Shown: positions 5,438-10,631 of the stretch, one piece after another
Position numbering within the stretch: the stretch's first letter is position 1
Layout of the letters: the number at the start of each line of letters is the position of its first letter
Source of the DNA: Planctomycetota bacterium
GTDB taxonomy: Bacteria; Planctomycetota; Brocadiia; Brocadiales; Brocadiaceae
Length of the DNA stretch: 64,000 nt
Reading direction: 5' to 3'
Assembly (NCBI GenBank): GCA_016873165.1
Contig: VGXV01000001.1
Location: 187,643-251,642, forward strand
Program-made: the position numbers and the translations under genes
Notes under the pieces: generated by a model
What the model was told of the DNA's origin: nothing
Databases searched by the model: none
Seen by the model: the letters and a program-made list of their open reading frames with translations, nothing else

Positions 5438-8400
5438 CTATTTCATCATCCAAACGGTTACTTCTGCCTTATTCACCACCTCATTCGCCTTAAAACTTGC
5501 CTTTGCATTGCAATCGGTTTTCAGGTTACATTTATCCTTTTTCACTTTTATGGTAAATACTGCCTTGCCATCCGCATCTGTCTTCCGGTTTGAAGGCTCA
5601 ATCTTTATTTTTTTGCTATTGTATGTTGTTACCTTTCTCTTTACCATAATCCCTTCAATACCGCAGCCGTCCGCATCGGTAACCGTCACCGTCACTTGCC
5701 CTTTCTCGTCTTTTTCCAGTTCCAATGTATCTGGCGATACCGTTATATTCTCCGCATCACCGCATACTCTGGCTGTAGGCGTAGGCGTAAGTGACGGAAC
5801 AGGCTCTGTTGCTGATGGTGTACTTGAAGGCAATGGAACAGGAGTTGTCGGTGTTATGGCAACCGTTGGCACAGGCAGAGCCGCTACCATACACTCACCG
5901 GTTACTAACTGTGGATAGCCTGCGGTGGTTGTCTCGTCATAATAACTTGCCGTCAGTATGTCTCCTCCTGCCGCCTGTATGCGTTCATAATCGAGCGTGG
6001 AATCCGTACTGATCATGATCGAACCCCTGAATATACCTGTATCTGTCCCCGTCTCCAACATTTTTACCACTGCAATATTAAACTGCGAGGTCTGCACAGA
6101 AACCTTCTCCAGAATAGTTTCCGTTTCTTTGTTATCTTCGTTTGATTCCGCATTGTTCAGGGTGATTTCCGCATACTCTCCGGTGCGATATACCGGACTG
6201 CCAAATGCAAGCGTCGCGTCAGAACTACTAAAAGAGAGTTTCTTTGTAATTGATGCGGAGGAATACGGACTGTATGCCACCGTAACCGTTCCGCCCTCCA
6301 TAGTCTTTACCGTGCCGATATTTGACCTGTTTCCTCCATCCGCACCGCCGGTAGCGGTTGTGCCTGTCTTTATGGTTGCCATGAATGTGCCGCTGTCGAC
6401 GCTGTCTTCGTTCAAATCCAACAAAAGATCGTTTCCTATATAATAATTATCTCCGGTGATTTTTATTGCAGTGGTGAGTATTTCATCCGCCTGAGCATCT
6501 GTGTTCCGGTCGCCATCGGCAACGGTGACAATTACCGTATCGCCGGAGAGATAGGCAACCTCTTTGCTCAACGCTAAAACACTTTGCAACCCTGTTGGTG
6601 TTGGCACTGGGGTTGGAGATGACGCCGGTGATGGTTGTGGCGTAACGGTTGTAGTTATAGTCGCAATTGCGGTTGCTGTAGGTGTCAACGAAACTTCAGG
6701 CACAGGAGACTCTGTTGCCGCTGGGGTGGGTGAAGATACTATCGGGGCAGTTTCAGTAGTAAAATTCCATGAATAATCAGATTCCATCGTTGTCCCTGCC
6801 CAGTTTGCTGCCTGCACCTTTGTCGTAACCTTTGCTGTATATTTTGTGCCATACAAGAGGCTTAAGGATGGGGTAAAGGTAATCGTGGCGCCGTTCGAGA
6901 CCACAGAACCTTCCACATCGCCGCCTTCATAGCTCAGTTTGAAGGATTCCTTCGTAACTGTAGAGCCGTTTACGTACATATTAAAGGTGGCAGATACCTC
7001 CGTATTCTCCGACACGCCGGTTGCGCCGCTTGATGGGCTTGTTGAGTTTACGGTGAGTTTCTCTTTTACAGGCTCTCCGCCACCTCCGCCTCCACTGCTA
7101 CTATTACTGCTTGGTGTAGAGTCGAGCTTAGTGACAAAGACGTCGTAAGAACCTCCGCCATAGGCCGTCGATGTTCCCACGCGTGGAAAGTTAGTGGATG
7201 CGGTCTCGCCGGTGATATACGCATAGCCGCTGCCATCTACGGCAATTCCTCGGCCAATATCGTATGCGTTGGCTCCTCCGATGTAGGTGGAGTATACAAT
7301 TGTTATGGGGGTCTCTGTGCCAAGCCTGGCGAAATATACATCAGCAGTACTTGTACCAGTATCACTTTTTCCTGTCGTTGTCCCGACGATGGGAAAGTCA
7401 ATGGATCTGGCCTCGCCGGTAATATATGCAGAACCAGCGCTATCCACAGCGATCCCATAACCTTGATCAAACGCACTTCCCCCGATGTAGGTAGAATAGA
7501 TAAATTTCAAGGGGGAGGTATCGGTACCGAGCTTGGTGACAAAGACATCAGGATCACTCGTGCCATTATTTTTGCCAGTCGTTGTCCCCACTACGGGAAA
7601 GTTGTTGGAGTAGGTAAATCCGGTGACGTATGCAGAACCAGAGCCATCCACGGCAATTGCATTGCCATTCTCGTCCTGAGATCCTCCCAGGTAGGTGGAG
7701 TATACTATCTGCAGGTTTGATGTGTCTGTGCCAAGCTTGGCAACAAAGGCTTCGACACCGCCTGAACTTGCCGTCGTTGTCCCCACGCGAGGAAAGTTTC
7801 CAGACTGGGTAAACCCAGTGATATATGCAGAGCCGGAACCATCCACGGCAATGCCAGCACCACTATCATTACCACTTCCCCCGATATAGGTGGAGTATGC
7901 GATACTTGCACCCGATGTGCCGAGCTTGGTGACAAAGACATCAAAAGTACCTCCGCCATAGGCCGTCGTTGTCCCAATGATGGGAAAGTTGTCATTGATG
8001 CGTGATTGGGTTTGTCCAGTGATATATGCATAGCCAGCACTATCCACGGCTATTCCATAACCACGATCAGTCTGCGTTCCTCCTATTAAAGTGGAATATT
8101 CGATGCTTGCGCCCGATGTGCCAAGCTTGGTGACAAAGGCATCAGAAGAACCTCCGCCATAGGCCGTTGTCGTTCCCACACGGGGAAAGCTGCCGTCACT
8201 GGTATCCCCGGTGATATATGCAGAGCCGGAGCTATCCACAGCAATTCCATAACCACGATCAGTTTGAGTTCCCCCGATGTAAGTGGAGTATACGATGCTT
8301 GCACCCGATGTGCCGAGCTTGATAACAAAGGCGTCCTCACTACCTCCACCATAAGGCGTATTTGTCCCCACAAGGGGAAAGCCGGTGGAGGTAGTCCTGC

Positions 8401-10129
8401 CAGTGATATAAGCAGCGCCAGAACTATCCACTGCAATGCCATTGCCATAATCACTACTACTACTCCCGATATAAGTAGAGTAATAAAGGGTGGGGTCAAT
8501 GATAAGGGTGCTGGCTGTGTCGTAGGGGGCAACATGGAAGGCGTAGATGAATTTACGATTTACAATTTGGGATGGCTTGTCATCAAGTTCCGAACCCACG
8601 AAAACGGCAGGCAATATCCTCCCTGCGTCCGGGTTTGTTTCATGTTTTTCCGGGAAGCCGGGGCAAACGTCTGTTTTTTCCACCCCCTGCACCCCCGCCA
8701 GCGGGGAACAATGTAAGACATTTGCCAGCGGAGAATAAAGGATGGCACACTTCAATGGGGTGCAATGGGAAGTATCCACCGCAGACGGGTATGTATTTGT
8801 CCCCCTTTGGAGGGGGTCTTGGGGAGGACTCCTTTGCGGATTCAAGTTTACAACTTGAACCCCATCGTTTATATCGTCTAAAACTTTCTCCACTGTATAC
8901 GCGCCAGGATTTAATACATTCATGGGTTCAGACTGTAAACCCAATGTCATTAAGTTACGGGTTATTTGATGAGAACAACCCCCTTTCTCTCCCTTTTTTA
9001 AGGGAGACTTTTGCAGCAAGTAGCTTAAGTTAATGCCATTGGGCTGCAAACCTGAACCAGCAGGAGAATCCGCATCATGCAACACGAACCTTCCCTTCAC
9101 CTCCACCCGTTTCCCCTCTATTTCCTGATACACATACGGGCGTTTTTGGATGATCTTTTGTTCGGTGGTTAAACCGCTTGAACTGTTTGAATTGTCTAAA
9201 CTGGCAGCGTAGGATGGGTCAGGCGAAGCAGACCCATCACAGCCGTTTAATCGGTTTAAACCATATAAACCTGCCTGTTGGGTGCGCTCCGCTTCACCCA
9301 ACCTACCAAGGATAATCTCCAGGTCGCCGTCCTTATTTATCCGCAAATCTTCTATTCCCTCGTACGCAAATCTGACCTGCGCCGGGTCTGCGCCTGGTCT
9401 GACAATAACGTCATACTCCAACTGGCGGTTATTGCCGTAAAATTTTAGGTCAATACCCTTGTATATCTCTTTATAGACGACTGCGCTATAGGTGGGGATA
9501 TTGGTTCTCCAGTTTTCCGGTTCATTGCCGATAAAATAGTTGATCGTTCCTTCCTGTAATCCTTCCGCAACAATCTCCGGGTGTTTGTTGGCGCCGATGG
9601 GAATGAGCCTGATAGTTACAATATCAGAATTGTGGAATGCGGAATCAGAAACTCCGGCATCTTGATTCTCGCCTCTTGCTTCCGGCATCTTGTTTCCTGT
9701 ATCCTGTCTTCCGCCAATCAGCGACAGATAGACGCCTTCTTCAGTAAAATACATGACATGGCCGCTTCCCGTTTCATAAAATTTAACCTCTTCTCCCATC
9801 TGGCCTTCATTTTTGATGAAATAGAGGGGCAATTTACTGTAAGACTCGCGTATAATTGAAGTGTCTTTGCCGTTTCCCTGCATGCATATAGTATTGTTAC
9901 AGGAAGATAATACTTGATCATTACCGGTTTTGATGTTTTCCTGAATACGGTGAGTCGCTGTGTTAGGAAGCAAAGGGTGTCCGTTTATCGTAAATACCGT
10001 TTTGCTATATTCCCCAGAATCCCACTCATACAGCTCCGATATATCTGATTCCATTCCAAACCCGGCATCTGCATACGCCCATAATGCCATACATGCAAAA
10101 ATCAATGTACACCATAAACGTATCACCAT
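5438..10129 (-). CDS. Giant secreted SBBP beta-propeller protein (DUF7948, seven SBBP repeats, Big-type domains)
   Basis: The chosen start is ATG at 10129, just after a GGGGGGTAGG stretch and before a signal peptide (MVIRLWCTLIFACMALWAYA); the open frame extends 44 codons further upstream but that part looks untranslated. The product has about 1563 residues. Order: signal peptide; DUF7948 domain (about residues 95-540) carrying inserts; seven YSTYIGG-type SBBP repeats (about 550-1000), a count that fits one seven-bladed propeller; a Gly-rich linker; a Big_5-like domain; two Thr/Pro-rich linkers around further beta-rich domains; and a C-terminal Big_1-like domain. No sorting motif is seen. Likely a surface or extracellular adhesion/structural protein; ligand unknown. 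The DUF7948 part contains in-frame palindromic repeats (separate entry). Confidence 0.88.
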   Translation of the reverse strand: MVIRLWCTLIFACMALWAYADAGFGMESDISELYEWDSGEYSKTVFTINGHPLLPNTATHRIQENIKTGNDQVLSSCNNTICMQGNGKDTSIIRESYSKLPLYFIKNEGQMGEEVKFYETGSGHVMYFTEEGVYLSLIGGRQDTGNKMPEARGENQDAGVSDSAFHNSDIVTIRLIPIGANKHPEIVAEGLQEGTINYFIGNEPENWRTNIPTYSAVVYKEIYKGIDLKFYGNNRQLEYDVIVRPGADPAQVRFAYEGIEDLRINKDGDLEIILGRLGEAERTQQAGLYGLNRLNGCDGSASPDPSYAASLDNSNSSSGLTTEQKIIQKRPYVYQEIEGKRVEVKGRFVLHDADSPAGSGLQPNGINLSYLLQKSPLKKGEKGGCSHQITRNLMTLGLQSEPMNVLNPGAYTVEKVLDDINDGVQVVNLNPQRSPPQDPLQRGTNTYPSAVDTSHCTPLKCAILYSPLANVLHCSPLAGVQGVEKTDVCPGFPEKHETNPDAGRILPAVFVGSELDDKPSQIVNRKFIYAFHVAPYDTASTLIIDPTLYYSTYIGSSSSDYGNGIAVDSSGAAYITGRTTSTGFPLVGTNTPYGGGSEDAFVIKLGTSGASIVYSTYIGGTQTDRGYGIAVDSSGSAYITGDTSDGSFPRVGTTTAYGGGSSDAFVTKLGTSGASIEYSTLIGGTQTDRGYGIAVDSAGYAYITGQTQSRINDNFPIIGTTTAYGGGTFDVFVTKLGTSGASIAYSTYIGGSGNDSGAGIAVDGSGSAYITGFTQSGNFPRVGTTTASSGGVEAFVAKLGTDTSNLQIVYSTYLGGSQDENGNAIAVDGSGSAYVTGFTYSNNFPVVGTTTGKNNGTSDPDVFVTKLGTDTSPLKFIYSTYIGGSAFDQGYGIAVDSAGSAYITGEARSIDFPIVGTTTGKSDTGTSTADVYFARLGTETPITIVYSTYIGGANAYDIGRGIAVDGSGYAYITGETASTNFPRVGTSTAYGGGSYDVFVTKLDSTPSSNSSSGGGGGGEPVKEKLTVNSTSPSSGATGVSENTEVSATFNMYVNGSTVTKESFKLSYEGGDVEGSVVSNGATITFTPSLSLLYGTKYTAKVTTKVQAANWAGTTMESDYSWNFTTETAPIVSSPTPAATESPVPEVSLTPTATAIATITTTVTPQPSPASSPTPVPTPTGLQSVLALSKEVAYLSGDTVIVTVADGDRNTDAQADEILTTAIKITGDNYYIGNDLLLDLNEDSVDSGTFMATIKTGTTATGGADGGNRSNIGTVKTMEGGTVTVAYSPYSSASITKKLSFSSSDATLAFGSPVYRTGEYAEITLNNAESNEDNKETETILEKVSVQTSQFNIAVVKMLETGTDTGIFRGSIMISTDSTLDYERIQAAGGDILTASYYDETTTAGYPQLVTGECMVAALPVPTVAITPTTPVPLPSSTPSATEPVPSLTPTPTARVCGDAENITVSPDTLELEKDEKGQVTVTVTDADGCGIEGIMVKRKVTTYNSKKIKIEPSNRKTDADGKAVFTIKVKKDKCNLKTDCNAKASFKANEVVNKAEVTVWMMK
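8693..9301 (-). repeat. Cluster of palindromic, intergenic-type repeats inside the SBBP protein gene
   Basis: Short perfect inverted repeats in coding DNA: CCCCGC/GCGGGG (8693-8698, 8701-8706); CCCCC/GGGGG (8801-8805, 8812-8816) in a CCCCCTTTGGAGGGGG core; TCTCCCTT/AAGGGAGA (8988-8995, 9000-9007); GATGGGTC/GACCCATC (9213-9220, 9231-9238); TTGGGTG/CACCCAA (9278-9284, 9295-9301). Three degenerate 9-base units (GCTTGAACT, GTTTGAATT, GTCTAAACT) lie at 9176-9202. The cores resemble repeats common between genes of many bacteria. All keep the reading frame open. Confidence 0.7.
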
Positions 10130-10631
10130 GTTCAACCTACCCCCCCCTTTTTTTATAAAAACTTTGCAATTCAGCCTTTTACAAAGTATCACACAACGCT
10201 GCTGCTGCTGCTGAATATAATCATGAGCGAATGTTGCCAAAATCTGAAAAACCGTACTCAATCATTACCAATAAGGAGACAAGATTAAACACGGCATCCG
10301 GCAATTTTTACAAAGAATTGTCGGGTTTAAATTTTAAAATATATACTATAGTATGCCAAAAAAAGAAACGAAAAAAGTATGATATATTGAATTATGATAC
10401 ACTGCCATGACATCGGTGAAACTATTCTATGTTTCTTCATTAGATAGTCTAATTTAACCAAAAAAAGGTTGTAAGGATTAAAAAAAGTTGCAAAATTAAT
10501 ACGTTTAAGTGAAAATGCAAGTATTCACCAAAACATGAGAGCAAAAAATGAAGTAAGGATTGAAGATTTTTTACCCTTATAATCATTTGCTCGCTTTCAA
10601 ATTTAAAAATCTTTACACCCTTCAGACAATT
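10130..10631. other. Intergenic region between the divergent SBBP and cysteine-desulfurase-like genes
   Basis: AT-rich spacer serving as upstream region for both genes. It holds a run of eight C (10140-10147), which lies in the leader just upstream of the SBBP start, and a short GCTGCT... trinucleotide run near 10199. A 9-bp hairpin CCGGCAATT/AATTGTCGG (10298-10306, 10316-10324) pairs fully in plus-strand RNA if one G-U is allowed. A perfect palindrome ATACTATAGTAT lies at 10343-10354. GTAAGGATT occurs twice (near 10472 and 10554). No gene or known riboswitch was recognised. Confidence 0.5.

Follow-up and report, generated by a model that had tools for sequence, protein, structure and literature searches.

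Probable in-frame insertion of unrelated palindromic repeats into adjacent loops of a DUF7948 protein in an anammox bacterium

INTRODUCTION

GTAG REPs are mostly intergenic, with some translated inside genes, where clusters of them encode up to 43 to 82 residues (PMC3733652), and the palindromic elements of Rickettsia are in-frame insertions that proteins tolerate (PMC10969869). That palindromic repeats can be read in frame is thus already established for both systems. What is new here is that repeats of several unrelated kinds crowd into three loops of a single domain family, DUF7948, with the other sampled genes of the genome nearly free of them.

The locus shares with GTAG REPs the GTAG foot beside a hairpin, the arrangement in doublets, and the translated copies. 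However, GTAG REPs occur in many unrelated genes, often those for DNA repair, whereas here a single, presumably secreted domain family is involved, and REPs are only one among several kinds of repeat in the same loops. Similarly, the Rickettsia elements strike many unrelated genes, while here 1 of 521 sampled genes is affected and several repeat families meet at one site. The inverted REP doublet with its spacer is reminiscent of REPINs (PMC3116915), although a RAYT gene beside these REPs was not found. Finally, MITEs and intragenic ERIC/RU elements are alike in their length of about 100 bp, their terminal inverted repeats, their dispersal, and their occasional in-frame position; among the copies listed here, no parent element was found, nor could a target duplication be made out.

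We propose that unrelated small palindromic repeats (a GTAG REP doublet, a MITE-like element, and C-rich palindromes) were, with high probability, inserted stepwise into two adjacent DUF7948 loops, and that in-frame, flexible outcomes were retained. DUF7948 loops would thereby offer a ready record of repeat movement and of the tolerance of proteins to inserted DNA.

RESULTS

The host gene

The window is the whole stretch of 64,000 nucleotides that was analyzed, and the contig carrying the gene is 254 kb long. The source organism is an anammox bacterium of the same genus as "Candidatus Kuenenia hertensis." The host protein has 1,563 residues and comprises DUF7948, an SBBP propeller, Big_5, and Big_1 (Pfam; Big_1 below its curated cut-off), with profile scores of 193 bits for DUF7948 and 190.7 bits for SBBP, both above cut-off. 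Its signal-like N terminus and its domains suggest that it is secreted. The main parts of the gene are as follows.

5438..10129, minus strand: host gene, ORF 5438-10261 with ATG at 10129 (ORF and translation, Pfam, NCBIfam)
9311..9820, minus strand: first part of DUF7948, profile positions 1-161 (Pfam PF25778)
9071..9169, minus strand: second part of DUF7948, with the conserved KIIQKRPYVYQEIEGKRVEVKGRF, separating inserts A and B
7103..8440, minus strand: SBBP beta-propeller repeats, span approximate (translation and Pfam)

Residues 1184 to 1454 (window 5771-6583) resemble the anammox S-layer family Kustd1514 (NF052345; E value, 2.8e-75), a partial match that scores far below the full-length cut-off (NCBIfam). 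Short tandem-like repeats (TCTTGATTCTCGCCTCTTGC..) occupy a third DUF7948 loop, at window positions 9640-9712, where the orthologue L115 carries a longer repeat run, RQEARIEKQEARGERQEAG.

Six palindromes are translated in frame within two inserts

Positions 8680 to 9306 of the DUF7948/SBBP gene contain six palindromes, which belong to three or more kinds of dispersed repeat, all in frame. Together with a MITE-like element and degenerate 9-base repeats, they fall into two inserts, which were delimited with anchor profiles on 103 homologous ORFs.

9158..9307, minus strand: insert A, about 50 residues, at a beta-hairpin turn that has 4 residues in insert-free relatives
8555..9079, minus strand: insert B, about 175 residues (usually 2-50 in homologues), in a loop between two strands
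9274..9306, minus strand: GTAG-tagged REP GTAGGTTGGGTGAAGCGGAGCGCACCCAACA, translated as RLGEAERTQQ, 7-bp perfect stem at 9278-9301
9209..9239, plus strand: GTAG-tagged REP GTAGGATGGGTCAGGCGAAGCAGACCCATCA, translated as CDGSASPDPSY, 8-bp perfect stem at 9213-9238
9165..9205, minus strand: degenerate 9-base repeats of the GGTTTAAAC type, with further ones at 9245-9272
8942..9041, unstranded: MITE-like element whose terminal inverted repeats, CAATGTCATTAAGTTAAG, lie at 8942-8959 and 9024-9041
8974..9010, unstranded: C-rich palindrome CCCTTTTTTAAGGG, 8-bp perfect stem at 8988-9007, nested in the MITE-like element
8836..8862, unstranded: palindrome GGATTCAAGTTTACAACTTGAACCC, translated as GVQVVNLNPQ, 8-bp perfect stem at 8841-8859
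8797..8828, unstranded: C-rich palindrome CCCCCTTTGGAGGGGG (8801-8816, 6-bp stem), translated as PPQDPLQRG
8680..8712, unstranded: C-rich palindrome CCCCCGCCAGCGGGG with head CCACCCCCTGCA, translated as SPLAGVQGVE; CCCCGCcaGCGGGG at 8693-8706 forms a 6-bp stem

In both REPs, GTAG stands beside an imperfect palindrome of 20 to 40 bp, as in the GTAG class, and the two are mutually inverted, forming a REPIN-like doublet at 9209-9306 in which two inverted REPs make up one unit. The MITE-like element has the terminal inverted repeats, the dispersal, and a length within the range of about 100 to 400 bp that characterize MITEs, and its inverted arms can be extended to 8925-8957 and 9026-9058. The initial annotation had described five palindromes and a set of 9-base repeats between 8693 and 9301, all of them real, but it counted one palindrome too few and missed the MITE-like repeat; its blocks of roughly 55 and 170 residues come to about 50 and 175, with the second reaching to about 8555. 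Its statement that every repeat keeps the frame agrees with the single open ORF, 5438-10261.

Such a density of stems is not expected by chance. Between 8693 and 9301 we observed 4 stems of at least 7 bp, against 0.3 in dinucleotide shuffles, and 0 of 300 shuffles reached 4; likewise, 0 of 250 equal-length pieces from other genes matched the count of 8-bp stems. The chance of an open frame in shuffles was 0.04% for insert B and 10% for insert A. The identified repeats cover about 43% of the insert bases, the remainder being sequence without an assigned repeat, and an Rfam search at gathering thresholds gave no match. Among the encoded peptides are TQQAGLYGLNR, GTNTYPSAVDTSHCTPLK, and TDVCPGFPEK. 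Copies of the 8680 palindrome use one reading frame in 10 of 11 cases; since shared ancestry reduces this count to perhaps four events, we make no claim of a frame preference.

The repeats are dispersed between genes elsewhere in the genome

Copies were traced by whole-genome searches and in a sample of 795 kb out of 4.05 Mb, in which gene calling relied on a simple codon score. The 631-bp stretch has 64 BLAST places genome-wide. The GTAG-REP pattern, with up to 3 mismatches allowed, has 29 copies, against none for the reversed pattern; this is fewer than the more than 100 reported as usual for REPs. For the MITE-like end there are 36 copies (control, none), several pairs of which enclose about 80 to 145 bp. 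The C-rich palindromes were followed by BLAST and a hairpin pattern, as nucleotide profiles from single-palindrome seeds were not useful; palindrome GGATTCAAGTTTACAACTTGAACCC was found by BLAST on contigs C5, C29, and C98 of the same genome. All remaining copies detected in the 795-kb sample with the REP and MITE-like profiles are intergenic. These counts bear out the supposition of the initial annotation that the repeats normally lie outside genes, and they contradict one of the two grounds for rejection that it named, absence of the repeats elsewhere in the genome. Four intergenic doublets (C9:44808, C14:42004, C30:30068, and C49:22386) have the window's REP arrangement, the spacer being longer in the window copy.

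In a reverse test, 521 genes were compared with intergenic DNA totalling 227 kb. The window gene matches 10 segments within its frame, six genes match one segment, and none besides the window gene matches two or more. Repeat invasion of genes is therefore not general in this genome, with 1 of 521 sampled genes affected.

Breaks of similarity coincide with element ends

Comparison with orthologues shows where the additional DNA begins and ends. DNA similarity to L115, L118, L119, L117, and L121 breaks off at 9312, 9312, 9311, 9308, and 9306 (as a set), at or within a few bases of 9306, where the REP doublet starts on its outer side, and it restarts in three orthologues at 9195, 9172, and 9168, the other end of the doublet being at 9209. 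Against L115, a second break falls at 9045, at the end of the MITE-like element, and similarity is back at 8568. In L118, the "Ca. Kuenenia hertensis" orthologue, site A comprises just 15 residues, and L119 carries NSSNGLNGLNCLNALN at the place of the degenerate 9-base repeats.

These comparisons bear on whether the blocks are old protein that happens to resemble repeats, or whether the gene itself gave rise to the dispersed copies. Blocks are common to the window gene, its paralogue L114, and the Kuenenia relative L117, as such an origin would predict. However, they are absent in most homologues; in these three genes the palindromes are 88 to 95% identical in DNA while the spacers differ, so that the palindromes are more conserved than what separates them; and sequence similar to the blocks is present at many places in 31 of 33 genomes of the family. 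We therefore regard an origin as old family protein as highly improbable. As orthologues lack the inserts or have other repeats in their place, with breaks at element ends, the other ground for rejection named in the initial annotation, an origin as old protein, does not apply. Insertion of separate repeats is also consistent with the insert dS, which in several pairs lies well below that of the flanks (e.g., 0.20 versus 1.75) and therefore fits recent arrival or homogenization of repeat DNA. In other pairs, the insert is under weaker constraint than its flanks.

The same loops are occupied across the DUF7948 family

The comparison was extended to about 100 copies of DUF7948 in 29 related genomes. 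Three DUF7948 loops (N, A, and B) hold repeat-derived inserts across these proteins. Among 97 homologues, the majority have precisely 4 residues at site A and 25 have 15 to 161, and in one subfamily the insert is placed one turn before site A; loops N and B vary in length as site A does. Translated repeats such as SPLTKGGRG, CPPLAGAGGG, NGLNGLN, and VGWALPTH are found in the homologues' inserts. DNA of the window's genome is matched by 45 of 103 long loops (32 of 71 proteins), and 354 of the 363 matches are intergenic. Of the control segments, 1 of 90 from the propeller and 8 of 97 of a second type give a match, the latter number reflecting anchors that are probably misplaced in the subfamily with the earlier insert. 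Three homologues from Nitrospirae and Deltaproteobacteria have A or B inserts that resemble other C-rich repeats (HSSSPLVGEGNGEGAK, IPPFLKGGEGGLGEGG, and SPFPLAGEGRGEG). Because the same loops have been invaded repeatedly in related bacteria, DUF7948 appears to act as a trap for mobile DNA.

Strong hairpins within a coding region could also act in the mRNA, by pausing or attenuation, with the protein insert as a by-product. Yet the palindromes gather in loops of the protein that occupy equivalent places in the structure from one paralogue to the next, which an RNA role would not need, making this explanation very unlikely.

An assembly or binning artefact is likewise conceivable for a draft genome, the more so as the loop inserts of L113 (on contig C43) are those found in another genus. 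Against this, the window contig spans 254 kb, its frame is open throughout, and inserts of a similar kind are found at these points in numerous separate assemblies, among them single-contig genomes such as G001 and G014, which leaves an artefact with hardly any probability. The inserts of L113 (G000:C43) and L258 (G021:C3) are identical across two genera: either they were transferred recently, or one of the bins includes a stray contig.

The inserts are predicted to be flexible, and selection for them is doubtful

In the predicted structure of the host protein, the core has a pLDDT of about 90, exceeding 90 over a large part, and both inserts are mostly below 50 (A mostly 37-50, B about 27-45), suggesting disordered inserts on a well-folded core. 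The model of the insert-free homologue L124 places site A at a tight turn between strands E178-182 and E185-198 and site B at a short loop between strands E207-215 and E223-230. A fold search with the DUF7948 core gave weak matches alone, to polysaccharide lyases, GH92, and YidC (TM about 0.25-0.36).

It is tempting to speculate that the inserts are adaptive, i.e., that capture of repeats diversifies exposed loops, for instance against phages or for cell-cell contact, and is selected. The family is multicopy and secreted, the insert differs in almost every paralogue or orthologue, the host protein has the stretch resembling an anammox S-layer protein, and S-layer proteins are reported to vary strongly among "Ca. 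Kuenenia" strains (PMC7709395). Nevertheless, the dN/dS of the inserts (about 0.5-1.2 in L263/L266 and L267-269, which are small sets) lies above that of the flanks and not clearly above neutral, and copies L113 and L116 end shortly past site B. In L113, L116, L258, and L275, the protein breaks off not far past the A2 anchor or site B, and no propeller was found in the DNA examined. An adaptive role is thus rather unlikely. The alternative offered by the initial annotation, repeat invasion tolerated or used, is supported as regards invasion with in-frame retention, and the part concerning use by the protein is not.

We thus favor stepwise insertion of separate elements. Small elements would have entered the gene in more than one step, moved as DNA presumably through nuclease or transposase action. 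Insertions would have been kept if they left the reading frame intact and the product soluble and contributed an exposed loop that was flexible and largely hydrophilic, the others being lost or breaking the gene. The loops may be tolerant as the domain is probably extracellular, and retention would be near-neutral.

Candidate mobilizers

A RAYT was considered as mobilizer of the window's REPs and rejected, as no RAYT gene with this REP next to it was found. The genome has 13 places with a Y1 transposase (Y1_Tnp), none near a GTAG REP among the places listed, and two of the long proteins score 64 to 66 bits against the REP_Tyr_transpos cut-off of 80. Among the listed copies of the MITE-like end, no pair lies 1 to 2 kb apart, as the ends of an autonomous parent might.

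C-rich palindromes are enriched beside DUF559 genes

The C-rich palindromes lead to a different candidate. C-rich palindromes lie near five DUF559 (PF04480) loci of the same genome: C9:50605, C6:83909, C10:56723, C2:68023, and C41:424. The 8680-type palindrome adjoins the first on both sides and the second on one side, and the 8988-type brackets the third. In 12 genomes from the family, the density of C-rich hairpins within 260 bp of DUF559 is 9 times that at 400 to 1500 bp, a ratio that is 13 in a wider Planctomycetota set and 10 for plasmid-borne loci of Alphaproteobacteria, Deinococcota, and Cyanobacteria (loci outside Planctomycetota were taken from plasmid records; loci L362-L411 and L412-L423). 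A C-rich palindrome stands beside 47 of 52 DUF559 loci, on both sides in 28, compared with 10 and 0 of 99 shifted controls, and a CCCC..GGGG hairpin lies within 260 bp of 47 of the 521 ordinary genes sampled, on both sides in 3. The palindromes vary between DUF559 genes, yet left and right copies often agree.

This enrichment in four phyla suggests that one class of repeat comes from a REPtron-like source not yet described, and DUF559 may move the C-rich palindromes. No paper linking DUF559 to repeats was found in the literature searched, as judged by titles and abstracts. Going further, it is possible, if somewhat short of probable, that the C-rich palindromes are widespread, apparently undescribed mobile repeats served by DUF559, with their own variant beside each gene as in a nuclease-based REPtron, and that DUF7948 loops act as a trap recording their movement. 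If causal, the DUF559 link would name a mobilizer for C-rich palindromes in four phyla and assign a role to a domain whose name still marks it as unknown; the association may even weigh more than the main finding.

Three plasmid DUF559 genes (L414, L419, and L423) lie within operons: paaD-paaZ, sufB-sufC, and between the NAD(P) transhydrogenase subunits. There, the gene with its palindromes looks as if it were itself a mobile insertion. Finally, at G000:C3:482-1481, a DUF559 domain and an apparent restriction specificity subunit share one frame, joined by the repeat-like linker SPPRPSGTPQEGKR.
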